Shown: positions 19,968 through 45,270 of the stretch, piece after piece | How the letters are laid out: every line of letters begins with the position of its first letter | Numbering within the stretch: the first letter of the stretch is position 1 | From: Owenweeksia sp. | GTDB lineage: Bacteria > Bacteroidota > Bacteroidia > Flavobacteriales > Schleiferiaceae | NCBI GenBank assembly: GCA_002695025.1 | Contig: NZNV01000028.1 | Coordinates: 62,001 to 126,000, forward strand | Reading direction: 5' to 3' | Length of the DNA stretch: 64,000 nucleotides | Translations under genes and position numbers: made by a program | The notes under the pieces: model-generated | Database searches by the model: none | The model's input: only the letters and a program-made list of their open reading frames with translations | What the model was told of the DNA's origin: nothing

Positions 19968-19996
19968 CCTTCCATTTCCCGATCACCGTCAATCCT

Positions 19997-20076
19997 GTTC
20001 AAAACTTGTGAACATCTTCATTCGCAAATTCCCGATGTGTTGACTAAATTTGTCCTGACTAATACTTTCAACACAT
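19997..20076 (+). promoter_or_regulatory. Operator and promoter region of the XRE-led defence operon
   Basis: Two inverted repeats lie in the 107 bp before the XRE gene: GTTCA (19997-20001) with TGAAC (20009-20013), and ATGTGTTGA (20035-20043) with a perfect partner TCAACACAT (20068-20076) that runs into the ATG at 20075. Between the second pair sits a TTG (20040) and TAATACTTT (20060), a weak promoter with near-leaderless start. The layout suits autoregulation by the XRE protein, as in restriction-modification controllers. Confidence 0.5.
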
Positions 20077-23873: not shown

Positions 23874-26389
23874 TGGAACTCAAGGATTATCAGAAAAAGG
23901 TTACATCCAAGCTGAAGGAATACCTCCTGGCACTTTCGGAGTTCAAGGACAAGTACGAAAAGGCCATTGAGTTTGACCCCGATATGGCCAAAGACTACAA
24001 CTTTCCGCGTAAGGCCTGGGAGAAAGCCGTAGGCAATATTTACCATTCCAGTTCCAACGGTATTGATGAACCCTTGCCCGAGCTTTACCTGAAAGTACCT
24101 ACGGGTGGAGGGAAAACCATTTTGGCCTGCCATAGCATCGACCACATCAACAAAACCTACCTGAAGAAGCAAACAGGATTGGTGTTATGGATCGTGCCCA
24201 CCTCCCAGATCTATCGGCAAACCCTTACTAATCTGCGCAACCGCGAGCATCCTTACCGCCAGGTTCTGGACATTTCGAGCGGGGGCCGCACACTGATAAA
24301 AGAAAAGACGGAGCATTTCAGCCGATTGGATACCGAGGAAAACCTGGTGATCCTATTGTTGATGCTTCCATCGGCAAACCGCCAGAACAAAGACACACTG
24401 AAAATTTTTCAGGATTCAGGAGCCTTTACGGATTTCTTCCCGCCCGAAGACAATTACAAGGCCAATGAAGCCCTGTTGGAGAAAATCCCCAACCTGGATT
24501 ATTTCGGGGAGGAAAACGAAGCCTTTGGCCGCACCCTTAAAACCTCTATGGGCAATACGTTAAAAGTGTTGCAACCTATCGTAATTGTGGACGAAGGCCA
24601 CAAAGCCTACAGCGAAAATGCGCGGAACACCATCCGCAATTTCAATCCATGTTTTATCCTGGAGCTTTCGGCCACACCCCCCAAAAACACCAACAAACTG
24701 GTGGAGATCACGGGCCGTGAATTGAACGAAGAGGAAATGATCAAACTGGACATTCACCTCACCAACAAAACCAGTCTGGATTGGAAAGATACCATGCTCA
24801 GTTCGGTGGAGAAGCGGGATGAACTGGAGAAAAGAGCCGTGGAGTACGAACAGAACACGGGGGAAAACATCAGGCCGATCAACCTTATCCAGGTAGAGCG
24901 AACGGGCAAAGATCAGCGCGAAGGAAAGTTCATCCATTCAGAAGATGTAAAGGAATTTTTGATCAAGCAGTGCAACATTCCTGAAGATCATATCGCCATC
25001 AAAAGCAGCGAGAAGGATGATATTGAAGGAATCAACCTCTTTGACAGGGATTGCCCTATCCGTTACATTATCACCAAACAGGCGCTTCAGGAAGGTTGGG
25101 ACTGTTCCTTTGCATACATCCTTACAATACTCACCAATCCCAGTTCCCAAACGGGTATTACACAGTTGATCGGACGCATTCTGCGTCAGCCCAATGCCCG
25201 CAAAACCAAGGTGCGTGAATTGGATGAATGCTACGTTTATACCTTCAGACAAAATGCTGCCAGTCTCGTGAAAGGCATCAAGAGCAGTCTGGAAAGTGAA
25301 GGCTTGGGCGATATAGCAGGAAGAGTTTCCGTAGATAGCGGTGATGAAACCGAAGGTAATGTGTTAAAGGAGCGGATAATGAAGCATCGCCCTCGCTTCA
25401 AAGAATTTGAAGGTAAGATATACCTACCCAAGTTTGTAATACAGGAAAAAGAGAGTTGGCGTGATATCATCTATGAGGTGGATATTCTTGGGAACATCGA
25501 TTACGAGAAGATCGACCTGGATGAGCTGAGAGATGTTTCGCTATCCAAAAACCGCAAACAGGAGCAGGAGCTGATCCTTGGCCTTTCGGAGGAAGAGCGG
25601 GCTTTGCTGAAGGAAAAAGGGCGCACCGAGAAAGACATTCGCCTGGAAATTGATGATGTGTTTATGACCCGCCAGATTGTGGATCTTGTACCGAATCCCT
25701 GGATCGGCTATGAGCTTGGTAAAAAGGCCCTGGAAATCTTCAGGGAGGAATATGAGGAAGATATTATAGCAGCCAACTTCGTTTTCATTATCGAGGAACT
25801 GAAAAAGGTTTTGGAAAAAGAGCGTAACCGCCTGGCCGAGGCGGTTTTCAGAAATCTGGTGGAAGACAAAACCCTTTGCTTCTTTTTGATAACGGGTGAG
25901 GGCGGATTTAAGATCCCGCCTCACATTCGGGTAAGGAGCAATAAGCAACTGATCCGTGAGGATAACACTGAGGTTCAGAAAAGCCTCTTCGACTATGTGC
26001 CCGAAGAAAATGTAAACGAACTGGAGCGTTCGGTGGCCATTTACCTGGATGAGCAGGAAAACCTGCTGTGGTGGTACCGCAACATGTCGAAGCAGGACTA
26101 CCACATCCAGGGCTGGAAAAAAGGAAAGATCTACCCTGACTTTATTGCTTCGGACGTGGGTTCTGAAGATTCAGAAAAGTACGGCAGCGTTTACGTGATT
26201 GAAACCAAAGGCCTACACCTCAAGAATGATGATACAAAGTATAAGCAGGATGTATTTGCCCTGTGCAATGAATTGGGCACCCGCAAAGCCTGGAAGGAGC
26301 TCGACCTTGATTTTCCCGATGAGAAAATTGAGTTCCAGGTGATTTTTGAAGATGAGTGGAAAAGCAGGATTAATGGGATATTCAGTTAA
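23873..26389 (+). CDS. res: Type III restriction subunit (Res), DEAD-like helicase plus nuclease
   Basis: Protein of 838 residues that partners Mod. Walker A is PTGGGKT (residues 76-82), motif II reads DEGH (about 240), motif III SATPP (about 267), and motif VI-like ITQLIGRILRQPNARK lies near 425. The C-terminal PD-(D/E)xK nuclease is IYPDFIAS (about 755) with VIETKG (about 775). It would translocate or signal along DNA from unmethylated sites and cut. It begins on the last base of the mod stop codon (TAATG). Base composition is GC-richer than the OLD and SIR2 genes on each side. Length is somewhat shorter than the 950-1000 of classic EcoP1I-type Res. Confidence 0.92.
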   Translation: MELKDYQKKVTSKLKEYLLALSEFKDKYEKAIEFDPDMAKDYNFPRKAWEKAVGNIYHSSSNGIDEPLPELYLKVPTGGGKTILACHSIDHINKTYLKKQTGLVLWIVPTSQIYRQTLTNLRNREHPYRQVLDISSGGRTLIKEKTEHFSRLDTEENLVILLLMLPSANRQNKDTLKIFQDSGAFTDFFPPEDNYKANEALLEKIPNLDYFGEENEAFGRTLKTSMGNTLKVLQPIVIVDEGHKAYSENARNTIRNFNPCFILELSATPPKNTNKLVEITGRELNEEEMIKLDIHLTNKTSLDWKDTMLSSVEKRDELEKRAVEYEQNTGENIRPINLIQVERTGKDQREGKFIHSEDVKEFLIKQCNIPEDHIAIKSSEKDDIEGINLFDRDCPIRYIITKQALQEGWDCSFAYILTILTNPSSQTGITQLIGRILRQPNARKTKVRELDECYVYTFRQNAASLVKGIKSSLESEGLGDIAGRVSVDSGDETEGNVLKERIMKHRPRFKEFEGKIYLPKFVIQEKESWRDIIYEVDILGNIDYEKIDLDELRDVSLSKNRKQEQELILGLSEEERALLKEKGRTEKDIRLEIDDVFMTRQIVDLVPNPWIGYELGKKALEIFREEYEEDIIAANFVFIIEELKKVLEKERNRLAEAVFRNLVEDKTLCFFLITGEGGFKIPPHIRVRSNKQLIREDNTEVQKSLFDYVPEENVNELERSVAIYLDEQENLLWWYRNMSKQDYHIQGWKKGKIYPDFIASDVGSEDSEKYGSVYVIETKGLHLKNDDTKYKQDVFALCNELGTRKAWKELDLDFPDEKIEFQVIFEDEWKSRINGIFS

Positions 26390-26424
26390 TATTCCGAAAA
26401 AATTCAGACTTTAACTGTATACGT

Positions 26425-27468
26425 ATGGCGAGAGAATTAAGTCGAACTGTGACTTACTATTTAGGGGCTGGGGCCAGCTATAATGCGCTTCCTATAGTGA
26501 ATGAGATGAAAAACGGCCTGAACAAGATTAGCCGTAATTTCGGAAAATATCAGGCAATAGGAGATCCTTTCGCAAAAAAAATGTGGGAGGATTTTAACTG
26601 GCTTTCCGATCAACATACTAAGTATTACTCGATAGATACCGCAGCAAATGTTTTCTTCAGGAGAGGAGGAGGCTCAAGGAGCACAGACCTTCATCGCCTG
26701 AAAAATGCGGTTTCACTTTATTTTTTACTTGAACAACTCGAATGTGTTAGTGAAAAGATGGAAAGTATTAAAGATGAACCTATAGATAATAGGTATTTCC
26801 GTTTGTTGGCTTATTTCTTTGGTGACTCTCCTTCTTATAATCTTCCACCAAATCTGAACTTTATATCATGGAACTACGACATCCAGATTGAGCTAGCTTA
26901 TCATCATTTTACAGGGAATGACAGGTTCTCAGAATCGACTAATGACCTGAACAGTCTTCCAAGAGGTGGTAAATACAATTTTGTAAAGAAGGATATTGAT
27001 ACAGGCAAATTGGTTCATCTAAATGGCATTGCGGGTCTAAGTGAACACCACGAACAGAATGGCGAGGTTCTTTACAGCCTTTATGATAGGATTGAAAGAA
27101 ATTCTATAGAGGACATTTTTAACAGCTTGAACAAAACAGATTTTTTCAACAAGTACAGCAGTGAGTATATGTTGAGTTTTGCTTGGGAGAAGGGGTTAAG
27201 CAGGGAGTATCAGAACAGAGCTATGGAAATAATGAAGGCCACTGATGACCTCGTAATTATCGGGTACTCTTTTCCCAACTTTAATAGAGACACCGATAGA
27301 ACATTGATAAAAGCTTTCCTGGAGAACAATAGACAAGAAAAGCATATCTATTTGCAGGATCCAAAGGAGGATGTGAAGCGGAAGTTTGAAAATTTGTTCC
27401 AGCCTAAGAATATTCCTGTAACTCAAGAAAAGGACAAGGAAGAGTTTTTTATTCCTCCGTACATATAA
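26425..27468 (+). CDS. SIR2-like protein, probable defence effector
   Basis: Protein of 347 residues. The N-terminus TVTYYLGAGASYNALPIVNE has the Rossmann GAGAS motif (14-18); NFISWNYDIQIELAY (about 150) carries the Asn and Asp of the SIR2 NAD pocket; LVHLNGIAG (about 195) holds the probable catalytic His; and DDLVIIGYSFPNFNRDTDRT (about 275) is the GYSFP motif seen in defence SIR2 proteins. By family it would bind and perhaps destroy NAD on infection; whether this one does is inference. It follows the restriction gene by 35 bp, same strand, and is the last gene of the operon. It is AT-richer than res. Confidence 0.82.
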   Translation: MARELSRTVTYYLGAGASYNALPIVNEMKNGLNKISRNFGKYQAIGDPFAKKMWEDFNWLSDQHTKYYSIDTAANVFFRRGGGSRSTDLHRLKNAVSLYFLLEQLECVSEKMESIKDEPIDNRYFRLLAYFFGDSPSYNLPPNLNFISWNYDIQIELAYHHFTGNDRFSESTNDLNSLPRGGKYNFVKKDIDTGKLVHLNGIAGLSEHHEQNGEVLYSLYDRIERNSIEDIFNSLNKTDFFNKYSSEYMLSFAWEKGLSREYQNRAMEIMKATDDLVIIGYSFPNFNRDTDRTLIKAFLENNRQEKHIYLQDPKEDVKRKFENLFQPKNIPVTQEKDKEEFFIPPYI

Positions 27469-27526
27469 GTCGGAGTATTAGGCTTAAACCGGAGCTTGCG
27501 ACACAAAATTTAGGATAGTCCCATGT

Positions 27527-28336
27527 TCAGTCTTGGCCGCTTCGTATGTCTTCCGAAAAGTTGCTTAGACTATTAGCTAAAGCTTCATAGGAATTTACGT
27601 TGGGCTTATTGATCCTTTTCACCAGATCACCCAATTTGTCGTACCAGCCTTCGGTTTTCATCTGCTTTTGAAACCTGATCTTAATTTTGTCAAAAACATC
27701 ATTATCAGTTGCGTAAGCCACCATGATTCCCTTCATGACCTCTTGAATTGTTATTAGTCGCTTTCGAACCACATGATATTCTTGTTCATTAATTGGTACA
27801 TTCTGCGCAGCATCTGTATAAAATCCAATCTGCCGCATAGTATCCATTCTTTCGAAGAACTTAATCTCCCCTTGAAACTGTTCGATCTTCATAAAGAGGT
27901 ACCGTTTAACTATTACTTCCATTGCTCTTGGATTCTTAAAGAGCCTCATTAACCTCGGGAGATCTTTCTGTGCCTCAAGAGTAACGGTCTTTAAATCTTC
28001 TGAAAGTAGGCCAAACATTGCAAAAATCAGTGCTACAAGATATCTGAGCCTGTGATTCTTAAATAGATTATCCATCCCCGCTACCTCTCGAAATTTGAAG
28101 CCATTGGAATCCAAGGTCAGGATAAGAGCTTTTACCATCTCCTCGGTGCTAATGATCAAAAAGCCAACGGCTCCACCAGGGTCTGAAGTAGCTATGGCTT
28201 CCGCAGAACGTGCTTTTTTCTCTGCGTTTGCGATTATGAGTTTCGCTTCACTGAGGCACTCTTTCTTTGGTAGTGTAATAAAATTTCGTTGAGACATTTT
28301 TCGGTACTTTCTAGATTCAGTTTTGTCAACCTTCAA
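27527..28336 (-). CDS. AbiV-like abortive infection protein
   Basis: Protein of 269 residues; a second ATG 39 bp in (MSQRNFITLPKKECLSEA) is an equally good start. Residues about 25-90 show the AbiV pattern: LIIANAEKKARSAEAIA, then GGAVGFLIISTEEMVKALIL (cf. the L-S-x-E-E-x-x-K-A-L core) and LFKNHRLRYLVALIFA, an all-helical HEPN-like fold. AbiV of lactococci stops phage late gene expression. It is convergent with the SIR2-like gene and overlaps the upstream gene by 11 bp, so the two are one transcription unit. I am moderately sure of the family. Confidence 0.65.
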   Translation of the reverse strand: MKVDKTESRKYRKMSQRNFITLPKKECLSEAKLIIANAEKKARSAEAIATSDPGGAVGFLIISTEEMVKALILTLDSNGFKFREVAGMDNLFKNHRLRYLVALIFAMFGLLSEDLKTVTLEAQKDLPRLMRLFKNPRAMEVIVKRYLFMKIEQFQGEIKFFERMDTMRQIGFYTDAAQNVPINEQEYHVVRKRLITIQEVMKGIMVAYATDNDVFDKIKIRFQKQMKTEGWYDKLGDLVKRINKPNVNSYEALANSLSNFSEDIRSGQD

Positions 28337-31108: not shown

Positions 31109-31182
31109 TCCTTTGATAAAAATTAAAGATCGGCAGCAAAGGTAGTCGGGCTGTATCTTCTGTTAGCTATAACCCTCCGTTG

Positions 31183-31276
31183 CCGCTTTTCAAGGTCAGG
31201 CCTCCGGTTTTGAGGCAAAATCTCCAATCCCGCCTTCTGCGGGATAGTATTTTCCCTCAAAAACCTTGACAAGCGG
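31183..31276. repeat. Nested inverted repeat, candidate structured RNA or cruciform
   Basis: Three stacked helices can form. Outer: 31183-31196 with 31263-31276 (14 bp, one mismatch). Middle: 31208-31215 (TTTTGAGG) with 31255-31262 (CCTCAAAA), adjoining the outer helix on its 3' side with an 11-nt bulge opposite. Inner hairpin: ATCCCGC/GCGGGAT, 31227-31233 with 31239-31245. It lies in the 277-bp gap before the DUF6943 gene. Nothing else is seen in that gap. Confidence 0.6.
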
Positions 31277-31385
31277 AGTCGCCCGCCTTAAGGAAAGGCT
31301 TTCTCTTTTCTTTTTTCCCTTTTTGTTTTCTCTTTTGGATAATTGTGTGCGAAGCGCAGCGGAGCATAACTTTAAATCCCCAGTT

Positions 31386-31823
31386 ATGTCTGATTTTGTT
31401 CTCAAGGGCTATTCAGCCCAAACTACACCTCGGAAGCCACATTTTTTCATTCTCTCCAGGGGCCTTAACAGTGGTAAGCCACTTTTGCAACCTTGCCCGA
31501 ACTGCTTTGTCCTTTCCGCTGAGGTGGAGGAGAGGAAGCAAACCCTCTACTGGATTGCTTACAGCCTCTGGAAAACCCGGGCCTACCGTCCACACCTGGT
31601 GGGCTCGGTAATCCCGTTTCTCAGGAAAGACCAATGCCGGAAGCTGATTTCGGAGGCCTATTCATCTGTGTGTACGTATCCTGGAGCACTTTCAAAGTCC
31701 ATTGCCCTGCTCACTGATATCGAGCAGAAGCGTCAGCACTTTCAAGCGGTGTCAGATCATATCGGCATCCTGCACGAAGCAATACTTTTTCGGCTTCTAC
31801 ATTCATCAAAAAAGGCCCGCTAA
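31386..31823 (+). CDS. DUF6943 family protein
   Basis: Protein of 145 residues of a Bacteroidota family of unknown function. I chose the ATG giving MSDFVLKGYSAQTTPRKPHF; longer frames upstream run into the structured non-coding stretch. The hallmark is PHFFILSRGLNSGKPLLQP followed by C-P-N-C-F-V, a possible zinc or redox C-x2-C. Then come a Trp/Tyr-rich piece (LYWIAYSLWKTRAYRPHLVG) and VIPFLRKDQCRKLI. Family members, as I recall, are spread over mobile regions of the phylum. It ends on a terminator hairpin shared with the convergent membrane-protein genes. Confidence 0.72.
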   Translation: MSDFVLKGYSAQTTPRKPHFFILSRGLNSGKPLLQPCPNCFVLSAEVEERKQTLYWIAYSLWKTRAYRPHLVGSVIPFLRKDQCRKLISEAYSSVCTYPGALSKSIALLTDIEQKRQHFQAVSDHIGILHEAILFRLLHSSKKAR

Positions 31824-31831
31824 GGGCCTTT
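31811..31831. terminator. Bidirectional terminator hairpin
   Basis: AAAGGCCC (31811-31818), loop GCTAA, GGGCCTTT (31824-31831), then CTTT. It overlaps the end of the DUF6943 gene and ends just before the convergent small membrane-protein gene, so it can serve both. Confidence 0.72.
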
Positions 31832-31833
31832 CT

Positions 31834-32034
31834 TTAGTTTCGATTCCATTTTTTCCGGAGAAACTCCAGCAGCCTTCTACAAATAAAGGTGGCAACAAAA
31901 CTGGCGACAGCTCCTACCGCTGCCAGGATTATAGCGTTGACGATTTCGGTCCCCGGTATATTGACAATAACACTTAAAAGGGTACCCCCGGCCATGCCAA
32001 CTTTGGACTCAAGATTTCCAGTCGCATTCATCAT
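31834..32034 (-). CDS. Tiny membrane protein, distal gene of a pair
   Basis: Protein of 66 residues, not recognised. The start chosen is the ATG that overlaps the upstream stop as ATGA. Residues about 20-55 make one or two membrane helices (GTLLSVIVNIPG; VNAIILAAVGAVASFVATF) followed by a basic tail RRLLEFLRKKW. Size and topology recall holins, spanin-like or viral membrane proteins, but nothing proves it. It is coupled to the 72-residue gene upstream. Confidence 0.6.
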   Translation of the reverse strand: MMNATGNLESKVGMAGGTLLSVIVNIPGTEIVNAIILAAVGAVASFVATFICRRLLEFLRKKWNRN

Positions 32035-32249
32035 TGCCAATTTTGGTCGTCTTTGGTAATCTGGCTTACTGCGGACAGTATGCCTCCGGCTACGATAACA
32101 TATCCTGCCACGGTCACAGCCTCAGCCGGCAAAGCTATAGGAGCAGCAAGCAAGGCTCCGCCTGCGGCTGCCAGCGTCAAACCCACCTTACGGAGCTTTT
32201 TGAAAAAAGGTGGAGTGGGGGCTTTCGCCCGTTCAATTATCTTTTTCAT
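32031..32249 (-). CDS. Tiny membrane protein, proximal gene of a pair
   Basis: Protein of 72 residues. A basic, Pro-containing start (MKKIIERAKAPTPPFFKKLR) leads into two hydrophobic, Ala/Gly-rich helices (VGLTLAAAGGALLAAPIALP; VTVAGYVIVAGGILSAVS) and an acidic end. I recall close relatives in many Bacteroidota genomes, always small and unnamed. The next gene starts within its stop codon. About 235 bp with no gene separate it from the 251-residue protein upstream on the same strand. Confidence 0.6.
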   Translation of the reverse strand: MKKIIERAKAPTPPFFKKLRKVGLTLAAAGGALLAAPIALPAEAVTVAGYVIVAGGILSAVSQITKDDQNWQ

Positions 32250-32485
32250 CAGTTCAGGTATCGGATATTCAGAAATACAGTTTCAGCCTAAGCCGGGACA
32301 ATCCCGGTAATCAACCTTACCGGAAAACTACATCCACAATTCTTTCGGCCAATTTTTCAAAAAGCAGGACCTGTAACCAGGCTGTCGCACCACGACAATT
32401 CAATGCGGTGGCCCACAATTTTCCTCTGGTGACAGATCGCTGCATTTGTTTCCTCAATGAGAGGTCGATTAACTACGTTCAGTAG

Positions 32486-33241
32486 CTATACCTGATCAAC
32501 TTCAACAAGTGCCAGGGCATTATACGCACCGTTTTTCAGGCTGTACATCTGGCCGTTTACCTCCTGGTAAAACTCCACACCAAACACCACGAACACCGGA
32601 AGCACAGAAGCAGCTGTGAAATTCAGAACAATGTTCTGAGCAGCTTCATTCTGGCTTCCCAGGGCAATATCAGCCGAAGCTGCGCTGTCGCTAACAAAGC
32701 TCTGGGCATCAAAGTCAATCTCCGCACTGCCTGTTACCATCCTGGCGTGGGTTGCCCCTGAAGGAATTGCAATGGCCTGGTTGGGTACCATGGCATCAAT
32801 GGCAAGGGTCGCTTCACCCGCTACGCGGTCAACAGTAGCGGTCCAGCCAAAGAAAACAGTGCTCCCAATGCGTGCTTTGTTATTGAAATTGAAGCCTCTC
32901 AAAATGGTGGCGTCACCTGCCAGCATATTCCTTTGCCCGCGGGCATTCACGGTGTCAGCCTGAATAGCCTTGAGCATTTCACGTGTAATACGTCCTGTGA
33001 TCCGCTTATCTGCTGTGTTCAGCAGGAGACTGCGCAGGGCAGTCCTCAACAGCTTGCCGGCACGGCCGGCTGCGCCAAACTCGGCACCATTTTCTCGCGT
33101 CCTTTCAAACGCTGGGTCATTTTGGATCCGGCTGGCATCCACTCCACCTTTGGTGCGGGCCAGGTCTTCACCGTTACTTCGATAAAAGGAAAGGTCTCCG
33201 ATCTTTCCCCTGAGTTTAATAATTCCTGTCTGTCTAGCCAT
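32486..33241 (-). CDS. Conserved Bacteroidota protein, beta-rich, function unknown
   Basis: Protein of 251 residues. The start giving MARQTGIIKLRGKIGDLSFY is chosen because this N-terminus is, as I recall, shared by many Bacteroidota proteins; the frame is open 96 bp further up but with poor composition. Residues 1-110 are basic and partly helical (FERTRENGAEFGAAGRAGKL; RITGRITREMLKAIQADT). Residues 130-251 are strand-rich with a hydrophobic end (VLPVFVVFGVEFYQEVNG). No enzyme motif, signal peptide or membrane helix is seen. A virion-like or nucleic-acid-bound structural role is possible and untested. Confidence 0.62.
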   Translation of the reverse strand: MARQTGIIKLRGKIGDLSFYRSNGEDLARTKGGVDASRIQNDPAFERTRENGAEFGAAGRAGKLLRTALRSLLLNTADKRITGRITREMLKAIQADTVNARGQRNMLAGDATILRGFNFNNKARIGSTVFFGWTATVDRVAGEATLAIDAMVPNQAIAIPSGATHARMVTGSAEIDFDAQSFVSDSAASADIALGSQNEAAQNIVLNFTAASVLPVFVVFGVEFYQEVNGQMYSLKNGAYNALALVEVDQV

Positions 33242-33404
33242 ATCACTAAATTTTTGATTAGGCTCCAAACCTATCCCGGTAAGAAAAAAAGTCGCGTCAA
33301 TCATACCGTTTGTGCCGCTTTCAGCGCATTTAGCCAAAATATTCCATTTCTGCCTTGGCTACCTTTATAGGCCTGATAGAGTATAGATGAAGTATGGATA
33401 AAGT

Positions 33405-33605
33405 ATGCCTGCCACTAAACGAATATGTATTTACCCAAAAGATATTCAATTGGTCACCGGTCGTAGTGAACGCTATGCCAGAAGCTACTATCGGCAACTA
33501 AAAGATGCTCTGGCCAAGGAAGATCACCAGTTCATCACCGTGGAAGAATTCTGCGCCTATGCCGACCTTCCTGTTGATCAAGTGATGGCCATCCTCCAAC
33601 CTTAA
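33405..33605 (+). CDS. Small HTH-like DNA-binding protein
   Basis: Protein of 66 residues. IYPKDIQLVTGRSERYARSY resembles the start of excisionase/MerR-like winged helices (a first helix that says which site is bound), and ITVEEFCAYADLPVDQVMAI forms a second helical unit. Relatives I recall sit beside the MARQTG-type protein in other Bacteroidota. Likely a regulator or excision factor of the module. It diverges from the 251-residue gene and is followed by a strong terminator. Confidence 0.6.
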   Translation: MPATKRICIYPKDIQLVTGRSERYARSYYRQLKDALAKEDHQFITVEEFCAYADLPVDQVMAILQP

Positions 33606-33680
33606 GTTCATCTATTAATTTTTCAGCTTTCCTATATTCGCAGCTAATTAGGTTAAGGTTTGGTTAATTGGTTGACCAGA

Positions 33681-33706
33681 AGGCCCCGGTGGTTCGGGGC
33701 CTTTTT
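33681..33706 (+). terminator. Rho-independent terminator
   Basis: AGGCCCCG (33681-33688), loop GTGGTT, CGGGGCCT (33695-33702), then TTTT. It lies 76 bp after the small HTH-like gene and closes the module on its right side. Confidence 0.82.
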
Positions 33707-33797
33707 CAGTTTTAGAAGCGGCTCTATTTAGCACCATTTGCTTTCATTTACCGCCTGATCTTCGTATATTTATTGGAGTACTAATCCGCAGTATAGC

Positions 33798-33840
33798 GGT
33801 TCAACAAAGTGGTGAACCATTGGGTGAACTGGTTCTTTGA
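33798..33840. repeat. Repeats next to the candidate attachment site
   Basis: GGTTCA (33798-33803) and TGAACC (33813-33818) form an inverted repeat, and GGTGAAC occurs twice 12 bp apart (33811 and 33823), with a further GAAC-TG-GTTC dyad (33826-33835). Clustered short repeats beside a tRNA fragment are what recombinase arm sites look like. Inference only. Confidence 0.35.
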
Positions 33841-33876
33841 TAGCTTATAAATGATTGATAATCATACGTGTGTGCC

Positions 33877-33904
33877 GCAGGTTCAAGTCCTGTCATCCCG
33901 ACCA
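33877..33904 (+). other. 3' fragment of a tRNA-Pro-like gene, candidate att site
   Basis: A full T arm (stem GCAGG/CCTGT around TTCAAGT, 33877-33893), a 3' acceptor strand CATCCCG, discriminator A and CCA (33894-33904) are present. The matching 5' acceptor strand CGGGATG is not found upstream, so it is not a working tRNA. A C1-G72 pair, implied here, is typical of tRNA-Pro. The fragment keeps the tRNA's own terminator at 33911. Site-specific integrases use tRNA 3' ends this way, with the intact tRNA at the far (left) end of the element. Confidence 0.72.
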
Positions 33905-33910
33905 ATCCAA

Positions 33911-33934
33911 AGCCGGCCATGTGCCGGTTTTTTT
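33911..33934 (+). terminator. Terminator of the tRNA locus
   Basis: AGCCGGC and GCCGGTT pair around a short CATGT loop and are followed by a T run. It comes 6 bp after the CCA of the tRNA fragment, as expected for the original tRNA gene. Confidence 0.75.
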
Positions 33935-34481
33935 GTATCGGGTGGAGGGGATCAGACTTTGAGAAAAGGCTGCTGTTGAGTATGGTATTTATACTTACTC
34001 CTCCATAATAGCTTTTCTGTGAAGCTTTAAAGGATACAATGTATCTCTGATAACAATAAGTGAGAAGTGTGTAAGGTTTTTCAGAGCCATTCAAAATTGT
34101 CATTTCGTTTGTTTGATTTCGTGCCTCAAAAATGCTGATGCACACCTCAGGGAAAAGACAGGGATAATTGAGGATTAAGTCCTGATAGCGGTCAGCTTTG
34201 GAGTTGCTAGATCGAAAAGCCGAGTATTAATCTGGAATATATCAGGAATGGCATTCAATTGGCAGAACATCCTGGAACCCAAACAACATTTCCCTTTATA
34301 TACCTGACTTCTTAATTTGACCCTCCCACACTTGCCATTGCCAAGGAAACCCGGCCAGAAAACAAGGTCCGGGCTGGTTACCCTTTGTTTGTAATAAATA
34401 CCCACCTCGTTTGGTGCAATTGCCAGCTTAAAAAGATAGAACAAGCTGAGATATTGATCCCTGAATTAAAATTGCACTCAC
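33935..34481. other. Intergenic region without recognisable gene
   Basis: About 550 bp to the right of the tRNA fragment. Minus-strand frames at 33801-34145 and 34175-34444 exist, but the first runs antisense through the tRNA fragment and neither has a family motif. No promoter of standard form was seen before the GH5 gene. Confidence 0.4.
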
Positions 34482-35717
34482 TTGAAGAAATTTCTGACCC
34501 TAGGAGCAATGTTGGGCATGTTATTGAACACCGCCATTTACCCGCTCTATGCACAACATAATACCTCATATTTTCACACGGAGGGCAAGAAGTTGATAGA
34601 CCCTAAAGGAAACCCTATACTTTTAAAAGGCACCAACCTGGGTAATTGGCTGGTGCCCGAAGGTTATATGTTTAAGCTGGACCAGGTAAATGCTCCACGA
34701 CTTATTGATGAGTTGCTTCATGAAATGGTAGGCCCCGATAGTTTAGAGGCCTTTTGGGATACTTACCTGGAGAATTATATTACCCATGATGATATCAGGT
34801 ATCTAAAATCAATAGGATGTAACCATTTGCGGGTCCCTTTTCATTACCGGCTTTTTACCGATGATCTGTATATGGGTAAGCGCAATGCGGGCTTTAAATA
34901 CCTGGACCGGGTAGTGGCGTGGTGCAGGGAGGAAGGGCTCTACGTTTTGCTGGACATGCACTGTGCCCCTGGCGGACAAACCGGTGACAATATAGATGAT
35001 AGCTACGGGTATCCTTACTTATTCAGCAGCAAGGCTTCACAGGATCTGATGAGTGAAATCTGGGTAAAAATAGCCCAACACTATAAAGAGGAGCCAATCA
35101 TAATAGGTTACGACCTTATGAATGAACCGGTAGCGCATTATTTTAAGGGTAATATTGAATGGTTTAATGCGCGGCTATATGAGCTTTACAAGCGTTTGAT
35201 TGAAGATATCAGGTCCGTAGATTCCAGCCATTCCATATTCCTGAATGGCTCCCTCTGGGCTACGAATTTTGATGTTTTCAAAGAGCCCATGGGAGAAAAT
35301 ATCGTGTATGAATTCCATAAATACTGGTTTGATGTGGAACAGGGCGCGGTGCAGCCCTATGTTGATTTCAGCGAGAAGTACCAGGTTCCCATTTACATCG
35401 GGGAAACCGGTGAGAATACCGATAAATGGGTGGAAGATTTCAGGATTTTGTTGGATGAGAATACTATCAGCTGGTGCTTTTGGCCTTATAAAAAGATGAA
35501 CAACACCAAGGGTATTATGAATTTTAAAGAACCTGAAGGCTGGAAAAAGATCAGTAATTACGCCAGGAGTAATAGAAGCTCCTACAAGGAGATACGTAAT
35601 AACCTTCCTGACCGGCAGTTGGTGCAAAAGGCTCTTCATGAATACCTGGTCAATTGTCGTTTTGAAGAGTGCTTTGAAAATACATCCTATAGTAAAGCCC
35701 TGGGCTTTCATCAATAG
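34482..35717 (+). CDS. Glycoside hydrolase family 5 (cellulase-like) protein
   Basis: Exported (alpha/beta)8 glycosidase of 411 residues. The start is a TTG giving a KKFLTLGAMLGMLLNTAIY signal peptide; no in-frame ATG fits it. GH5 landmarks: GNPILLKGTNLGNWLVPEG, HLRVPFHYRLF, YVLLDMHCAPGGQ, the acid/base Glu in YDLMNEPVAHYF (about residue 212) and the nucleophile Glu in PIYIGETGEN (about 308). Substrate is probably a beta-glucan such as beta-1,3 or beta-1,4; subfamily not resolved. It is the first chromosomal gene right of the candidate att site and stands alone. Confidence 0.88.
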   Translation: MKKFLTLGAMLGMLLNTAIYPLYAQHNTSYFHTEGKKLIDPKGNPILLKGTNLGNWLVPEGYMFKLDQVNAPRLIDELLHEMVGPDSLEAFWDTYLENYITHDDIRYLKSIGCNHLRVPFHYRLFTDDLYMGKRNAGFKYLDRVVAWCREEGLYVLLDMHCAPGGQTGDNIDDSYGYPYLFSSKASQDLMSEIWVKIAQHYKEEPIIIGYDLMNEPVAHYFKGNIEWFNARLYELYKRLIEDIRSVDSSHSIFLNGSLWATNFDVFKEPMGENIVYEFHKYWFDVEQGAVQPYVDFSEKYQVPIYIGETGENTDKWVEDFRILLDENTISWCFWPYKKMNNTKGIMNFKEPEGWKKISNYARSNRSSYKEIRNNLPDRQLVQKALHEYLVNCRFEECFENTSYSKALGFHQ

Positions 35718-35924
35718 GTGCTTGATATGGGCTTTCGGCAAATTTTTAAACCGTAATCATCGTGAAGATTAACCCTGGGGCTATCCTAATTAGTAAACAT
35801 GGGTGTTTTGTAAGGCCTGTGCTGGCTAAACATTCTCTTTCCTGGAATCATTCAGGCTAAAGAGTGCTCTAAAAAAGATAGGTACTCTAAGGATGCTTAT
35901 TTGCCTGGCCACCTAGACAAAACA

Positions 35925-35956
35925 AAATGCCGCCACGCGGAAACGTGGCGGCATTT
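35925..35956. terminator. Strong bidirectional terminator
   Basis: A perfect 13-bp stem, AAATGCCGCCACG (35925-35937) with CGTGGCGGCATTT (35944-35956), around CGGAAA. It lies 21 bp beyond the stop of the minus-strand T9SS gene, between it and the GH5 gene, and can end both. Confidence 0.85.
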
Positions 35957-35977
35957 CTTACTCAAGAATTATCAGCA

Positions 35978-38917
35978 CTACTTGATCATCAGTTTGTCGG
36001 AATGAACAACTGCGTCATTATAATACACCTGATAGAGATACATACCTGGTATCAGGCCACTCAGGTCAATGCGATTCTCGCTATTGATAGTACAGGGGCC
36101 GCTATACACTGTGTGACCAGCCACATCCACAATATGCAATAAAGCCTGGCCATGGTGCTCGGGAGCCTGTTCCATGCGCACATTTAAGAGCGCAAAAGAA
36201 TGGGCGGGGTTGGGAACCAATGAAACTTCACTGATATGGAAGCTTCCAGCTTCGTCCAGGCTTGTTGGATCTCCGTTTTCGCTTGCATCGGTTTTTGATG
36301 TCCTTCTGGGTTTACAGGCACAAATAGGGTCCGACCATGCGGAGGCGGAACCGTTTCCGCAAACAGCCCGTACCCTCCAGGAGAAACAGGAGGAAAAACC
36401 AATTGTATCAATGGTATTGGTGGTTTGTACAATAACTTCACCAGGCAGGAAAGGTGTACTACAGCAATTGGGGTCGCTTTGATAGACGGCTATTTCATAA
36501 TATGCTGTATAAGGTACTGCTTGCCATCCTAAACGGTGTCCAAAAGGAGTAATCGAACACTTGAGTTGTTCCGGGGGATTTGGATTACACGGCTGACAAG
36601 AGCAAACGGATGCACTCCAGGGAGATACTTTACCATTTGCACAGATGGCTCTTACCTGCCAGGAAAAGCATTTTGTACTTCGGAGGGTATAGGAAGGGGT
36701 AAGCGAACTGTCCATAAAAGACTGAAAAAGGTTATCCGGACCACAGCAGCTTTCATCTCCTATGAAAAAACGTATTTCGTAGCTCACCGCATTGGCTACC
36801 GGGCTCCAGGTCATCATCTGGTTACGGCTGGATAAAACACATTGCAAATCCTGAGGAGCGCTAAGCTCACAGGGTGGGGCACAAGTGAAGGTATAGGTCA
36901 CACTATCGCTGCAACCGGTGGCATTATCGGTAACCACCACACTTATGGGCAGTTGATTGAAAGAAACGGAAGCGGCATCACCGGTAGTATTGTTACTCCA
37001 GGCAAAAGAATGCGTAGCCGTAGTCAGTACCGTACCGTTACTCAATACCCGGATGGGGAATTGCGTATCCGGGAACTTACAGGGGTCAAAACTACAGAGA
37101 GAATCTACATCCAGGCCGAAATCGGTATTGTCACAACAAGAGCCGTTAAGGCCGGGATTCTCGCAACAGCTAAAATTATAGGTATAGGACCATACACAGC
37201 TTCCGGGGCCGCTTACCGTAACCACCACTGTGGAATCGGGGTAAGTGGAGGAGATAGCGGAATGATTCCCGGGTTCATGGCTCCAGGAGATGTTGTAAAT
37301 ATTATTATCCACCAGTGAGCCATCTTCATTGTATACAAATATCGGGAAGGCTTCATCCGGATGCTCACAATAATCGCAGCAGGGATCACCGCCACCGCCA
37401 CGCTGGGCCATACCGGAAGAAACCCGCTTTTTATAATCATCTATTTCAGCTTGTACGGCTGCAGGTATACGGTAGCTGGCGTTGGGAGCGTAGAGGTCGC
37501 AGCAGGTAAATACATTAAATTCAGGGCAGCACACCTCCTGGTAGACGTAATCGTTGTTCTGCCCGGGATTGGTGTGGTAGTCATTTTCCCAGCGGATTTG
37601 CCCCGGGCCGAAGGAGAACATCACATCCACGCGAAAATCAAAGCCATCTCCGGGGTTCACATTGGCGGGTAGGTTAGCCGGGGTTACAGTAAAGGAGAAA
37701 TAGTTATTGCTGAGATTGACCGGGATAAACCCTACGGTTACATCCGCACCGTTCTGGAGAATAGAGAGTTTTACACTATCAATCAAAGCGGTATCGCAAT
37801 TCAGGATAGCGTAGTCAATGGTACCATTAACAGTAAGCGTATCGCCCTGGCAAGGTTTGGTGGAGTTCAATTCTACCGCTCCCTGGAAATTACAGGAGTC
37901 CCTTTCCTCGGTACAGGTATCACAAATGTTGTCAACATAAGCGTATCCCCAGTGTCCCCCCCAGCCGCAATCGGTAGCAATAAATTCGAGGGTTACCGTA
38001 TCACCGGGTTGGCCACAAGCGTCTACAAAACCACATTTCCAGTCACGGTATCTGATAGGGGAATTCTGGCTTGTACTGTTAGGAGGCGCTTCAAAAAGAA
38101 AAGGGTCAGATGAGTAAGCGCTATGACAAAGCCTGTCACATTCTATTCCATTAGTATTCAGTACCCTGGCTAAAAAAGTGGGTTTTTCACCATCATGACT
38201 AAATCCAGGGTCCACCAGTACAGGTGCATAATGGAAGAAGATGCGTTCGTCTACTTCCGAAAGTACCACATGCTTAATCAACTTGCTTACACTATTCTCA
38301 GGCCGTGTACGATTAGGAGCGTCTTGATCGGAATTGATACGTGCTGCATGTTGTCCGTCAAAAACCCTTTGGATAGGTACGTTAGAGTCGGCTCCCGTAT
38401 CTACTATCGCAAAATCCCCGGTATACGTCATAGGACTACTGGTAAAGTTCAGGGTACTGACGGTTGGTGAGGCGGTAAGTATATCACAGTCGCCTTGAGT
38501 GTATTCAAAGTACGATACTTCTCCACTGTAATTGCTGAAATCATTGCTCTCAAAACCACCGTTATCGCAGGAGCCGGCTATAAATTGCGGGATAAAAATG
38601 TCCTTAGCCCAGGGGTTGTTGAGGAAATACTGGGTACGCCAGTACTGTTCTTTAAATTGCTGAAGAAGAATGGCTTCCTCGGCCTGGCTGATGGGCTCTT
38701 CAGAATGAATAAGATATTGATCAAATCTTTGAGTTTCGGATGGAGGCAGGCTTTTATGGATGTTATCATCAATAAAGCTGGCTATTTTCTGCTCTTCAGC
38801 TTTCATAAGTACCAGGCGATTGGCATACTGGCTGCTGGTCTCCTGGGCCAGAACATAGGATGTTAGCATACAGACCATAAGGACTATGGCCCAACACGAG
38901 TTGAGTTTTCGGATCAT
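35978..38917 (-). CDS. Large secreted T9SS protein with fibronectin-III-like domains
   Basis: Exported protein of 979 residues. Signal peptide to about residue 24 (LMVCMLTSYVLAQ). Residues 120-320 form a jelly-roll-like domain starting CDNGGFESNDFSNYSG, with a Cys pattern ending DNICDTCTEERDSC. Two matching FnIII-like repeats follow: PQDLQCVLSSRNQMMTWSPV and PEQLKCSITPFGHRLGWQAV, each with a Cys-Cys and ending W-x-V-R-A-x-C. The tail (EVSLVPNPAHSFALLNVR ... PGMYLYQVYYND) is a type A sorting domain. Unusually rich in Cys (several CC pairs), so it needs oxidative folding. It probably serves adhesion or binding; no enzyme motif is seen. Confidence 0.84.
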   Translation of the reverse strand: MIRKLNSCWAIVLMVCMLTSYVLAQETSSQYANRLVLMKAEEQKIASFIDDNIHKSLPPSETQRFDQYLIHSEEPISQAEEAILLQQFKEQYWRTQYFLNNPWAKDIFIPQFIAGSCDNGGFESNDFSNYSGEVSYFEYTQGDCDILTASPTVSTLNFTSSPMTYTGDFAIVDTGADSNVPIQRVFDGQHAARINSDQDAPNRTRPENSVSKLIKHVVLSEVDERIFFHYAPVLVDPGFSHDGEKPTFLARVLNTNGIECDRLCHSAYSSDPFLFEAPPNSTSQNSPIRYRDWKCGFVDACGQPGDTVTLEFIATDCGWGGHWGYAYVDNICDTCTEERDSCNFQGAVELNSTKPCQGDTLTVNGTIDYAILNCDTALIDSVKLSILQNGADVTVGFIPVNLSNNYFSFTVTPANLPANVNPGDGFDFRVDVMFSFGPGQIRWENDYHTNPGQNNDYVYQEVCCPEFNVFTCCDLYAPNASYRIPAAVQAEIDDYKKRVSSGMAQRGGGGDPCCDYCEHPDEAFPIFVYNEDGSLVDNNIYNISWSHEPGNHSAISSTYPDSTVVVTVSGPGSCVWSYTYNFSCCENPGLNGSCCDNTDFGLDVDSLCSFDPCKFPDTQFPIRVLSNGTVLTTATHSFAWSNNTTGDAASVSFNQLPISVVVTDNATGCSDSVTYTFTCAPPCELSAPQDLQCVLSSRNQMMTWSPVANAVSYEIRFFIGDESCCGPDNLFQSFMDSSLTPSYTLRSTKCFSWQVRAICANGKVSPWSASVCSCQPCNPNPPEQLKCSITPFGHRLGWQAVPYTAYYEIAVYQSDPNCCSTPFLPGEVIVQTTNTIDTIGFSSCFSWRVRAVCGNGSASAWSDPICACKPRRTSKTDASENGDPTSLDEAGSFHISEVSLVPNPAHSFALLNVRMEQAPEHHGQALLHIVDVAGHTVYSGPCTINSENRIDLSGLIPGMYLYQVYYNDAVVHSDKLMIK

Positions 38918-39253
38918 GTAATTTTAAATTAAAATAGGTTGCTTCCTACTCTTTTATGGATTTTCGGAATCCTCCATTGGAATCTTGGCCACGAAAATAT
39001 TTATTGTCCGTAGCCGGGAATTATGGAACTAGTAAAGCGTTTTCTTTAAAGAGAATGGCCAGGCCAAAAAAGAGTTTTTCAAGGTTTTGATTACGAACTA
39101 ACCAAGCCTTCTGCTTTGTTAAAAAGCTAATAGTTGACCGGTGTCTGATAAATTAGTTATAGAGATTCCAAATGCTGGAGGAGTTCGAGTCTTTTAAAGT
39201 GAAAGCCTCTCATATAAGGACGACTTTTCCCTGCGTGTCATAAACCTGAAATC

Positions 39254-39342
39254 AAATAATAGAAAGCCACCTTCAAATAATAAAGTCCCGGACGTAAATA
39301 ATAGAGTTGCACCCCGGAGCTTCAAAGGGCATGGTATGTTTG
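39254..39342 (+). promoter_or_regulatory. Three direct repeats at 21-bp spacing upstream of a -7 box
   Basis: AAATAATA begins at 39254, 39275 and 39296, exactly 21 bp (two helical turns) apart. After the third comes TTG (39307) and then TATGTTTG at 39335-39342, a perfect TAnnTTTG box, 38 bp before the SPFH-like gene. The repeats sit where activator sites normally lie. The rest of the 460-bp gap 38918-39379 shows nothing else. Confidence 0.55.
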
Positions 39343-39379
39343 AGCAGAATTAATAACAAACCCGCTTAAAACGCACCCC

Positions 39380-40408
39380 ATGGAAACAAAAACAAAATTC
39401 ATCACCTTACTAAGCTTAACCTTTTTTCTAACGCTTACTTCCTGCCAGAAAAAGCAAACCCAACAAGAGCCGGTGCGCCAGCAAATGGTCAGCCAGTCCG
39501 TTTTGAACGGTGTGCGCCTGGCGGATGGCATGCCACTCAGCATTAAACTATCTACCCGCTGGGAAATTGCGGACAGTAAACACTTTGAAAAACAGTTTGG
39601 CAGTACCGGCCGCTACGATACCCTGGTGTTAACCCCCAAACAACTGGAACTGGCCAACCAGGTCTCCAATCGCTTTGAGCATGTGGATTCCGTTTTCACC
39701 ACCCAGCGCCAGGCTTTTATCCTGCAACTGAAGCAACACCTGCTCAACAAGTTGGGAGAAGAGGGAGTAGAGGTCAATGACGTGATCGTGTCCAAAATAG
39801 AATTCCCTGCTTCCTACACCAATGTGAAAGAGCGCCTGGCCTTACAGGAGCAGGAGTTGAAGAGCATCCGTAAACAAAGCGTTATTGACCTGGAAAATGC
39901 GGAAGCGCAAAAGAAAAAGGCCATAGCCCAGGGCGTAGTAAATGTGGAACAGGCGCAGATAGACGCCCGCCTGGAAAAAATACAAGCCGAGATGGAGCAG
40001 AGCCGCAGGGCTTCCATGCTGGCCAAGGCTGAAACGGACAAGCAGGTGGCTGAACGCAGGGCGCAGGCCGAAGCGCGCAGGCAGGTTTTACTGGCTGAAG
40101 CTGATGCCAGGCAGAGAGAACTGTACGCTGATGTGGAGGTAGAGCGCAGCCGTAAACTCAACAACGTAGAAGTAAAGAAACAAGAGGAACTGGCGCAGGT
40201 AGAGCTTAAAAAGGAAGAGCAAAACAATGAGCTGGCCTACCAGCATAACGTAAAAATGGCCAGCCTCTGTGAGCAGCGCCCGGCTTATGCCAGCTACCTG
40301 ATCAATAAGCAGATGGCCGAAAAAGTGCAGATAGCTGTACTGCCCAACGATAAAAATGCCACGGTATTCAGCGGCTTACTCAACCAGGAAATGACCTTTG
40401 CCAAATAA
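39380..40408 (+). CDS. SPFH/band-7-like lipoprotein with long coiled coil
   Basis: Protein of 342 residues. A lipoprotein signal ends at LTLTSC (Cys 22). Residues 45-155 look like the prohibitin/band-7 fold (LADGMPLSIKLSTRWEIAD; LVLTPKQLELANQVSNRF; VEVNDVIVSKIEFP). Residues 155-295 form a charged coiled coil rich in Ala, Glu, Gln and Arg (AQIDARLEKIQAEMEQSRR). SPFH proteins build ring assemblies on membranes; a lipid-anchored periplasmic form is less usual than the common TM-anchored one. It is monocistronic, with the 21-bp repeat array and a perfect -7 box upstream. Confidence 0.75.
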   Translation: METKTKFITLLSLTFFLTLTSCQKKQTQQEPVRQQMVSQSVLNGVRLADGMPLSIKLSTRWEIADSKHFEKQFGSTGRYDTLVLTPKQLELANQVSNRFEHVDSVFTTQRQAFILQLKQHLLNKLGEEGVEVNDVIVSKIEFPASYTNVKERLALQEQELKSIRKQSVIDLENAEAQKKKAIAQGVVNVEQAQIDARLEKIQAEMEQSRRASMLAKAETDKQVAERRAQAEARRQVLLAEADARQRELYADVEVERSRKLNNVEVKKQEELAQVELKKEEQNNELAYQHNVKMASLCEQRPAYASYLINKQMAEKVQIAVLPNDKNATVFSGLLNQEMTFAK

Positions 40409-40440
40409 CAGCTTTGTTTCCATGCCTTAACCAGGCCCGG

Positions 40441-40470
40441 CCACCGGTTGCTTTGCAGTCGGTGGTTTTT
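40441..40470 (+). terminator. Terminator after the SPFH-like gene
   Basis: CCACCG (40441-40446) pairs with CGGTGG (40460-40465) around a 13-nt loop, then TTTTT. Weak stem but well placed, 33 bp after the stop codon. Confidence 0.5.
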
Positions 40471-40474
40471 GGGT

Positions 40475-41329
40475 TTAGGAAGCGGCTCGTTCCGCCATTT
40501 GGCGGGCCATCCTTTTTTTCCAGTCGGCCCATTTTTCCTCGTAATAGGTGCTGATGAGGTCATCCACCTTTTTCATGATAAATACATTATAGGCTCCCTT
40601 CAGCTGTTTAAGGATGGAGCTGTTTACGGTACGCAGCGCCATTCCAAAGCCGGTGGTGATGTATTCATTGTAATGCCACCATCCGCTGGGCATAAATACG
40701 GTATCACCGTGTTTCAACACTGCGGTAAAGCCTTCTGCTTTGGCCAGGGCCGGGAATTCATTATAATCCGGATTGCGGAGATCTACATTACTATGCGACC
40801 CCATGGGCTGCTTGTAGAGGAAGGGCGACATTTCGGGGCTGAAAAGCGTTACGCGTTTTTCACCCGAGAACTGGGTGAGGAATACGTTGGACAGGTCAAT
40901 GTCATAGTGCAGCCTTACTTCTGAGCCTTCTCCGCCAAAAAACATTACGGGCACCGATTTTACCCAGCCATCGGCAATATCCGGGAAGGTGAAATCCTGT
41001 TTCAGTTGCGGGGCATATTTGAAGATGTTAAAAAGGAACAGCCTGAAATCATTGGGGCCTTGTTGAATAAGATCAATGTAATCCGAGAAGCTCATTACCT
41101 GTTCCGGGGGCATTTTGATGCGCGTAGGTTGGTTGGTTTTCCAGCTTCCGAACACTTGCACCTTTTCATGGCCCACCAGGGTCTTAAAGCGCTCGTAGGT
41201 CCAGTTTTGCATGGATGGCCAATTCTCACCAAAGCTCCGGAAGATCAAGGGTTTTTGAGGAAGGTAATACTCTTTTTGAAACTCTTCGCGAGTAATACTT
41301 TCTCTGAATTCTATAGGCTGTAAATCCAT
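40475..41329 (-). CDS. Cupin-like / JmjC-type Fe(II)-oxygenase
   Basis: Cytosolic protein of 284 residues of the cupin_8/JmjC group. QKPLIFRSFGENWPSMQNW is the typical start of the domain. The iron site is H-x-D in VRLHYDIDLSNVFLTQ (about residue 152) and a distal His in VFMPSGWWHYNEY (about 233). FSGEKRVTLFSPEMSPFLY matches the strand between them. These enzymes use 2-oxoglutarate and hydroxylate proteins or small molecules; the target is unknown. A second, longer JmjC gene lies at 56180-57367 with a different arrangement. A palindrome and -7 box are upstream. Confidence 0.85.
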   Translation of the reverse strand: MDLQPIEFRESITREEFQKEYYLPQKPLIFRSFGENWPSMQNWTYERFKTLVGHEKVQVFGSWKTNQPTRIKMPPEQVMSFSDYIDLIQQGPNDFRLFLFNIFKYAPQLKQDFTFPDIADGWVKSVPVMFFGGEGSEVRLHYDIDLSNVFLTQFSGEKRVTLFSPEMSPFLYKQPMGSHSNVDLRNPDYNEFPALAKAEGFTAVLKHGDTVFMPSGWWHYNEYITTGFGMALRTVNSSILKQLKGAYNVFIMKKVDDLISTYYEEKWADWKKRMARQMAERAAS

Positions 41330-41353
41330 TTTAAACAGAATTAAATGAATTTA

Positions 41354-41386
41354 CAAAAATACGGACATATCTTCTTCAAAGAAGAT
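41354..41386 (-). promoter_or_regulatory. -7 box and palindromic operator for the cupin gene
   Basis: On the minus strand TATTTTTG (41354-41361) is a perfect TAnnTTTG box. Eight bases further up lies the palindrome ATCTTCTT-CA-AAGAAGAT (41369-41386), both arms perfect, covering the -33 area. A repressor bound there would block the promoter. Confidence 0.5.
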
Positions 41387-41418
41387 GATATTCGTCAATT
41401 CAAAGCTGAAGACGCAAT

Positions 41419-42165: not shown

Positions 42166-42188
42166 ATCAGAGATCGGAAAGATAAGTT

Positions 42189-45164: not shown

Positions 45165-45270
45165 GGTCTTACAAAGGTTTTAGGATGCTAAGTTAGGATA
45201 TGGTTGCAGAAGATGTTAATACAACTTGCCGTAGATTTAACACCACAAGATAACAAGCTTACCTGCTAAT

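Follow-up and report, generated by a model that had tools for sequence, protein, structure and literature searches.

Near the middle of a 64,000-nt stretch of an Owenweeksia sp. genome (contig NZNV01000028.1, C32 below; the whole stretch is called the window), a compact group of small genes lies between positions 31175 and 33931 and ends at the 3' part of a tRNA gene. An earlier note on this DNA saw in the group a possible mini mobile element, perhaps the remnant of a small tailless virus or a satellite with a borrowed integrase. The five genes, the nested hairpin and the tRNA 3' fragment are all present where that note placed them. From comparisons of sequence, we interpret the stretch as very probably the right-hand attachment site (attR) and adjoining end of a genomic island integrated at a tRNA-Pro gene. 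The group of genes, hereafter the module, is very probably the conserved attachment (att) end of a widespread and probably undescribed family of tRNA islands with defence and metal-resistance genes. The features in the window are as follows.

31175–31286, plus strand: conserved imperfect hairpin upstream of the DUF6943 gene (covariation, 12 sequences)
31386–31823, plus strand: DUF6943 protein, convergent with the operon (PF22105, E=9.9e-41; alignment A6)
31834–32034, minus strand: TM2, small membrane protein, overlapping TM1 by ATGA (alignment A5)
32031–32249, minus strand: TM1, small membrane protein (alignment A4)
32486–33241, minus strand: 251-residue helix and beta-sandwich protein, the hallmark of the module (alignment A1, 35 members; AlphaFold2)
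33405–33605, plus strand: helix-turn-helix (HTH)-like protein, 66 residues, divergent from the operon (alignment A3, 20 members)
33678–33705, plus strand: terminator past the HTH gene (terminator scan)
33811–33829, plus strand: tandem GGTGAAC repeats, candidate integrase arm-type sites (direct repeat; a near-identical repeat lies by the integrase on contig C36)
33867–33904, plus strand: probable attR core, the 3' end of a tRNA-Pro gene and presumed right boundary of the island (tRNA-Pro matches)
33909–33931, plus strand: terminator of the presumed former tRNA-Pro gene (terminator scan; similar hairpins seen by eye at relatives' left ends)
18385–28336, no strand assigned: presumed island cargo, defence genes (PADLOC and Pfam)
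1–33904, no strand assigned: presumed right part of the island, entering from further left on contig C32 (sequence comparison; the join to C36 is putative)

The DUF6943 protein scores 139.4 bits against a Pfam cut-off of 27; its conserved start lies near 31386, and the listed open reading frame (ORF) from 31266 is a 5' extension. The 251-residue, HTH, TM1 and TM2 proteins reach no Pfam cut-off, and both DUF6943 (PF22105) and DUF5675 (PF18925), a further member of the module in relatives, are DUFs. DUF5675 was not found in the window copy by the ORF list or profile searches, and this copy may be partly decayed. Alignments of relatives showed that the module families are kept across genera. The terminator scan gave 11 terminator-like sites in the region, compared with 4.2 expected by chance, and the island is not set apart by base composition (G+C 0.459 vs 0.460).

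The fragment at the outer end of the module (33867–33902) matches the 3' end of the genome's own tRNA-Pro(GGG) with 89% identity over 36 nt, and that of a relative, G202, with 100% over 29 nt; its reading as the remnant of an attachment site holds. The intact tRNA-Pro(GGG) gene lies on another contig of the same genome, C36, at 57672–57745. It is followed there by an integrase gene (57980–59236), an excisionase-like HTH gene and genes for a replication-like protein and a DnaC-like loader, all homologous to those of G194, the complete relative described below. The window fragment and the C36 integrase each have a short repeat beside them, GGTGAACCATTGGGTGAACTG and GTGAACTATTGGGTGAACTG respectively; the two repeats are alike and resemble integrase arm sites. 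A borrowed integrase is not needed, because the island's own one adjoins the intact tRNA at the opposite end both in G194 and on C36. The tail of C36 and the left 64 kb of C32 hold metal-resistance, redox and stress genes on nearly all one strand, as read by eye from the translations and not from a library search. The island would measure about 109 kb if C36 and C32 abut; other contigs may intervene, and a size above 100 kb is probable.

A genome of the same genus, G199, shows the site in another state. Its trxB gene (94% identical protein) is followed about 2 kb on by tRNA-Pro, DNA homologous to window 49.1–58.3 kb (71–82%) appears 2.8 kb past the tRNA, and no island core or module gene was found in the 19.9 kb fetched. 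This arrangement suggests that C36 and the right flank of the window were probably neighbours before insertion.

The entire layout was seen in G194, a single-contig genome, where a tRNA-Ser core (at most two mismatches) occurs three times in one orientation, at 579502, 611374 and 645978, the first copy lying inside an intact tRNA-Ser(TGA) gene (579435–579520). Two islands of 31.9 and 34.6 kb stand in tandem at this one tRNA-Ser and follow the same plan, each interval having an integrase at its start and the module at its end. After the integrase come accessory genes (efflux and regulators, read by eye), RteC (Pfam, E=3.2e-86 for the copy in the first island), HTH_17, a replication-like protein, a DnaC-like loader (E=1.8e-17), defence-type genes (AbiEii, ABC-3C components, a STAND NTPase, a methylase and HNH) and the hairpin with DUF6943; TM2, TM1, DUF5675, the 251-residue gene, the HTH gene and the att core close the island. 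Among the island core genes, Pfam named Phage_integrase and HTH_17. In the first island, genes for TIR and DUF2971 proteins stand between DUF6943 and TM2. No conjugation machinery was recognised among the 27 of 76 ORFs (at least 50 residues) of the two islands given to Pfam. In some loci an integrase lies just past the HTH gene, which we interpret as the opening gene of a following tandem island. The module does not form a unit on its own. Its outer limit is attR, and the integrase is found at the opposite end of a far larger island. Nor is a mini element compatible with islands of 32–35 kb in G194 and probably more than 100 kb in the window's genome.

A circular form with a joined att site is seen for a relative, plasmid p1 of Marivirga sp. 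BKB1-2 (25,320 bp), and not for the island of the window. On the plasmid are the module and genes for the integrase and for HTH, replication-like and DnaC-like proteins; DUF6943 was not found in the places searched, and in the deposited record frame changes break up the integrase and 251-residue genes. A 17-nt tRNA 3' core, AGCCCAGGTGGGCCCAC, lies between the integrase and HTH genes with repeats on both sides. The longer pattern GTTCRARYCCAGGTGGGCCCAC, with one mismatch allowed, occurs in 30 of 99 genomes of the class; two one-mismatch matches that were checked both end tRNA-Met genes, and the single exact match checked is cut off by a contig end and gave no tRNA call.

The 251-residue protein recurs in hundreds of Bacteroidota contigs, with at least 565 of the 594 pattern matches listed confirmed in a scan of bacterial genome contigs. 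We kept the best 80 loci as chosen by this protein, which are its closest relatives among the matches listed and not a random sample; two of them, at contig ends, have no complete ORF. They come from Flavobacterium, Chitinophaga, Marivirga, Cyclobacterium, Cecembia, Lacibacter, Solitalea and others. Among the other loci of this set with enough flanking DNA, TM1 is present in 68/74, TM2 in 60/72 and DUF5675 in 61/75, the HTH gene in 65 of the 70 with enough upstream DNA, and a convergent DUF6943 gene within 5 kb in 43/60. All five genes of the window (HTH, 251-residue, TM1, TM2 and DUF6943) occur together in 36 of 53. Within the class, 28 of 198 genomes contain matches to the 251-residue protein, including the window's own genome with six (three strong and full-length, three weak and partial with E 6e-11 to 7e-6). 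DUF6943 exceeds its cut-off in 16 of the 198, and 11 of these also have the 251-residue protein.

Several variants of the module were noticed among the loci compared. A protein of 163–167 residues replaces the HTH gene in a module branch formed by L067, L069, L070, L072 and L073; that of L072 belongs to the Staphylococcal nuclease family (PF00565, E=1.4e-14), and a tRNA-Lys gene faces the protein in L069, L070 and L073. A related repeat-rich protein (cluster n5) lies between the 251-residue/DUF5675 genes and TM1/TM2 in L084, L092, L109, L121, L128 and L139. Two modules stand inverted and head-to-head in L055 (4920–10140; 86% identical) and in L137. Contigs of Flavobacterium gelidilacus (L134, L136, L140, L141) are broken at either edge of the 251-residue gene, as expected of a near-identical multi-copy repeat.

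When Flavobacterium species are compared with one another and with G194, the block from the HTH gene to TM2 is mostly 89–99% identical in DNA and breaks off sharply where unrelated flanking DNA begins; other locus pairs in the same comparison fall to about 82%. The outer end of the block is an outward-reading tRNA 3' end, usually that of tRNA-Ser (CAAATCCCTCTTTCTCCGC). Inspection by eye of 22 left ends showed a terminator-like hairpin after it in most. Such an outward-reading tRNA-like fragment lies upstream of the module in 42 of the 73 loci of the best-80 set that have at least 900 nt of upstream DNA. In 38 of these it is one of two cores (at most three mismatches, within 1.7 kb), namely tRNA-Ser in 33 loci (21 exact) and a second tRNA-like core in five, at distances of 594 to 1106 nt, all but two of them within 644–754 nt; the remaining four (L121, L145, L150, L153) have a different tRNA-like T-arm. 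Repeats of intact tRNA ends (at least 14 nt) were not found inside the fetched loci because islands exceed those stretches, and the search of the whole G194 genome settled this point. The earlier note had proposed to look for joint travel of the five genes and for tRNA genes beside them in other genomes. Joint travel is seen, with tRNA-like 3' fragments upstream of many copies, and its view that DNA of this kind moves is borne out by the near-identical blocks shared between species.

The island reading draws on the tRNA 3' fragment with its terminator, the tRNA-Pro and integrase set on C36, the site in G199, the tandem layout in G194 and the circular relative. Several observations weigh against it. 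The G199 site is not base-clean, with about 2 kb between trxB and tRNA-Pro and 2.8 kb from there to the first homologue of the right flank. Synteny with G199 resumes only at window 49.1 kb; the 15 kb to the right of the att site (window 33905–49065) is missing from the equivalent position there and could be another insertion. The right flank beyond the tRNA was matched in only one of the six relatives fetched. C36 and C32 are not joined; an overlap was looked for and none was found. The replication-like protein is named from a weak PHROG match (replication initiation, E=0.0028), and its stronger matches are to unnamed families. In 31 of the 73 loci the searched stretch has no such tRNA fragment, although an intact tRNA lies near four of them (outward-reading in L085 and L155, inward-reading in L112 and L148). 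Finally, 11 of 41 loci have the opposite layout, with an intact tRNA within 2.2 kb of the 251-residue gene and its 3' end facing that gene (L038, L041, L045, L047, L048, L049, L057, L065, L069, L070, L073).

The presumed cargo of the window (18385–28336) includes AbiEi/AbiEii, an OLD/AriA-like ATPase, a type III methylase and restriction enzyme, and an AbiV-like HEPN protein. In relatives, cargo sits between DUF6943 and the final gene of the operon, an interval that measured 11 bp to 3.4 kb in 67 cases; the window has its defence genes beyond DUF6943 instead. The intervals hold 32 ORFs of at least 100 residues, 28 of them opposite to the operon. Pfam was run on 20 of these ORFs and PADLOC on 10 of the 20, nine of which were in the first Pfam batch. 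Defence-type matches include TIR, TIR-STAND, ABC-3C, AbiEi/AbiEii, DUF4365, NERD and SMEK, and the other cargo is ordinary (DUF4476, metallo-beta-lactamase fold, CoiA) or without a match. With defence genes adjoining, the module might itself be a defence or toxin-antitoxin-like system carried as cargo, in which the small membrane proteins, next to what may be a cell-wall enzyme, could bring about the death of infected cells. We consider this unlikely: the cargo around the module varies, yet the module itself stays by the att site in both islands of G194 and in 42 of the 73 loci, a pattern that fits a core gene more readily than cargo. To the right of the module, the window's sole Rfam match above the gathering score is a DUF805b cis-regulatory RNA (38943–38977, minus strand).

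The hairpin upstream of DUF6943, present in most loci, consists of a long imperfect stem, a side hairpin and a loop of highly variable length. Its covariation was assessed in 12 sequences, the window and 11 relatives picked for short loops; the structure was derived from the same sequences on which it was tested, a bias in its favour. In this set 94.1% of cells pair, with 16 of 34 pairs changed on both sides, compared with 37–59% pairing in slid controls. None of 500 shuffles reached the observed value on four of five measures, and 186 reached it on the fifth, the number of pair types. In L105, L106, L107 and L116 another conserved non-coding sequence stands where the hairpin would be. DUF6943 adjoins DUF6266 in G038, G060 and G194, at loci without the 251-residue protein, and a partial, below-cut-off DUF6943 adjoins DUF6266 at the end of contig C28 of the window's genome; neither partner was found for DUF6943 in G084, G148 and G158.

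By pure inference, DUF6943 may recognise the hairpin as an origin, either of replication or of transfer; an attC/integron reading drawn from the hairpin's architecture is speculation. An origin of transfer would suit a mobilizable island that a conjugative element of the same cell sets in motion, with DUF6943 as an accessory protein and the TM proteins aiding mating or excluding it. A long covarying hairpin in a non-coding stretch and the RteC named by Pfam, which we take to be the CTnDOT regulator family, are consistent with such an island. However, the PF03432 relaxase, the one relaxase family searched, is absent from G194 and its sole copy in the window's genome is on contig C29, and PLSDB types the Marivirga circle as non-mobilizable. 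We regard mobilization of this kind as possible but doubtful.

The AlphaFold2 model of the 251-residue protein (mean predicted local distance difference test 90.4, predicted template modelling score 0.81) combines a hairpin and a helix at the N-terminus with a beta-sandwich at the C-terminus, the latter weakly matching C2/Ig-like folds. Foldseek found nothing at E<=0.001 in PDB and BFVD, and the best VIA-align matches (Z 5.5), mostly over residues 122–251, were C2/Ig-like sandwiches. Sequence profiles of the 251-residue, DUF6943 and DUF5675 proteins gave no convincing solved relative; the one short match of the HTH profile (E 6.7e-06, 20 residues) was not trusted. The N-terminal part of the 251-residue protein has a weak likeness to DUF6266 (PF19781; Prob 32.8, E 0.00046, profile comparison), and both proteins are present in L063. 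No relative of the 251-residue protein was found in IMG/VR scans or in a phage collection of 50,697 records.

A stand-alone remnant of a small virus or satellite with a beta-rich coat protein, located at island ends by chance as the earlier note would imply, seems very unlikely to us. Its genes are compact and coupled, the HTH-to-TM2 block (about 2.2–2.35 kb) is the longest shared DNA listed for many locus pairs, and some copies lie beside tRNAs with other island genes not in view. However, the outer end of the block is the att site of the island, the inner side runs into island cargo, and no integrase or replication gene lies within the module. The proposed jelly-roll capsid did not emerge from the fold check, which returned common beta-sandwiches alone. 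For a virus there is one indirect clue, the sharing of DUF5675 between relatives and phages, and the window copy lacks this gene.

The DUF5675 proteins of relatives are PF18925 members by the curated cut-off and have conserved Cys and His residues. Relatives of DUF5675 occur in 123 of the 50,697 phage records (E<=0.001), where the protein is annotated as "transpeptidase catalytic domain protein" in crAss-like phages, is present in a 5 kb microvirus and adjoins a transmembrane protein in two Vibrio phages. This gene company suggests, as a guess, a cell-wall or lysis role. Against it count that the role is deduced from gene company and that the window copy lacks DUF5675.

The same phage records bear on the idea that the island resembles a phage satellite, carried in the particles of a helper phage, with the end module redirecting packaging or triggering lysis. 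The integrase, excisionase-like HTH, replication-type genes and tRNA target all suit a satellite, and the defence cargo fits as well. On the other hand, the Pfam scan of island proteins (27 of the 76 ORFs in G194) revealed no gene for packaging or a capsid, and islands of 32–35 kb and, in the window's genome, probably more than 100 kb carry bulky cargo. The phage collection contains no match to the 251-residue or DUF6943 protein, and two IMG/VR scans none to the 251-residue protein. A satellite of this kind appears rather unlikely.

For the integrative island in tRNA-Pro, we propose the following course. The tyrosine integrase would recombine attL with attR, both tRNA 3' ends, and release a circle, which would replicate with its own initiator and helicase loader and then enter another cell. 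The HTH protein might turn on a cassette in which DUF5675 would act as a peptidoglycan enzyme and TM1 and TM2 as holin-like proteins, letting island DNA or a helper's particles leave the cell. That the module is such an HTH-switched membrane and cell-wall cassette is our best guess, offered tentatively. A bolder version, which we think improbable, would have self-replicating tRNA islands throughout Bacteroidota equipped with a minimal exit module: a new structural protein of the 251-residue/DUF6266 type, a cell-wall enzyme and holin-like proteins would free the island DNA, perhaps inside a novel type of particle, and the DUF6943 hairpin would be the packaging or transfer signal.

The module now offers a marker by which the att ends of islands with anti-phage and metal-resistance genes can be located. 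Among the genes scanned, these islands have an integrase and replication-type genes and no recognised way out of the cell, so their travel is directly testable in ordinary strains of Flavobacterium. No paper on the module was found in open-access full text, which is weak evidence of absence; the same was true of DUF6943 and DUF6266, and DUF5675 appeared in phage papers.

Among known systems, the CTnDOT and NBU elements of Bacteroides have tyrosine integrases and the RteC regulator, and NBUs target tRNA genes. The present islands share with them a Bacteroidota tyrosine integrase, RteC (by Pfam) and, as in NBUs, the tRNA target; unlike them, they have no relaxase or conjugation genes recognised in a limited Pfam scan. 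To our knowledge, the end module is not part of CTnDOT or NBU elements.

Phage satellites and hitchers such as phage-inducible chromosomal islands (PICI), P4-like elements, PICMI and Tycheposons are described, in the part of the source available, as non-autonomous, helper-dependent islands with integration genes and cargo (PMC11389934). The combination of integration genes and cargo is common to both, whereas the present islands are larger (32–35 kb to probably more than 100 kb), are built of other protein families than that part describes and have no recognised packaging or capsid-remodelling gene (PMC11389934). An island of Riemerella anatipestifer, as far as the available part of its report goes, is 10 kb long, with 12 mostly hypothetical ORFs, a tRNA-Arg target, a tyrosine integrase and 53 bp direct repeats; its excision was shown by PCR, and its authors left horizontal transfer open (PMC6764341). 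It is smaller than the islands described here, and that part of the report does not mention an end module; like the island of the window, it belongs to Bacteroidota, targets a tRNA gene and has its tyrosine integrase beside the tRNA (PMC6764341).

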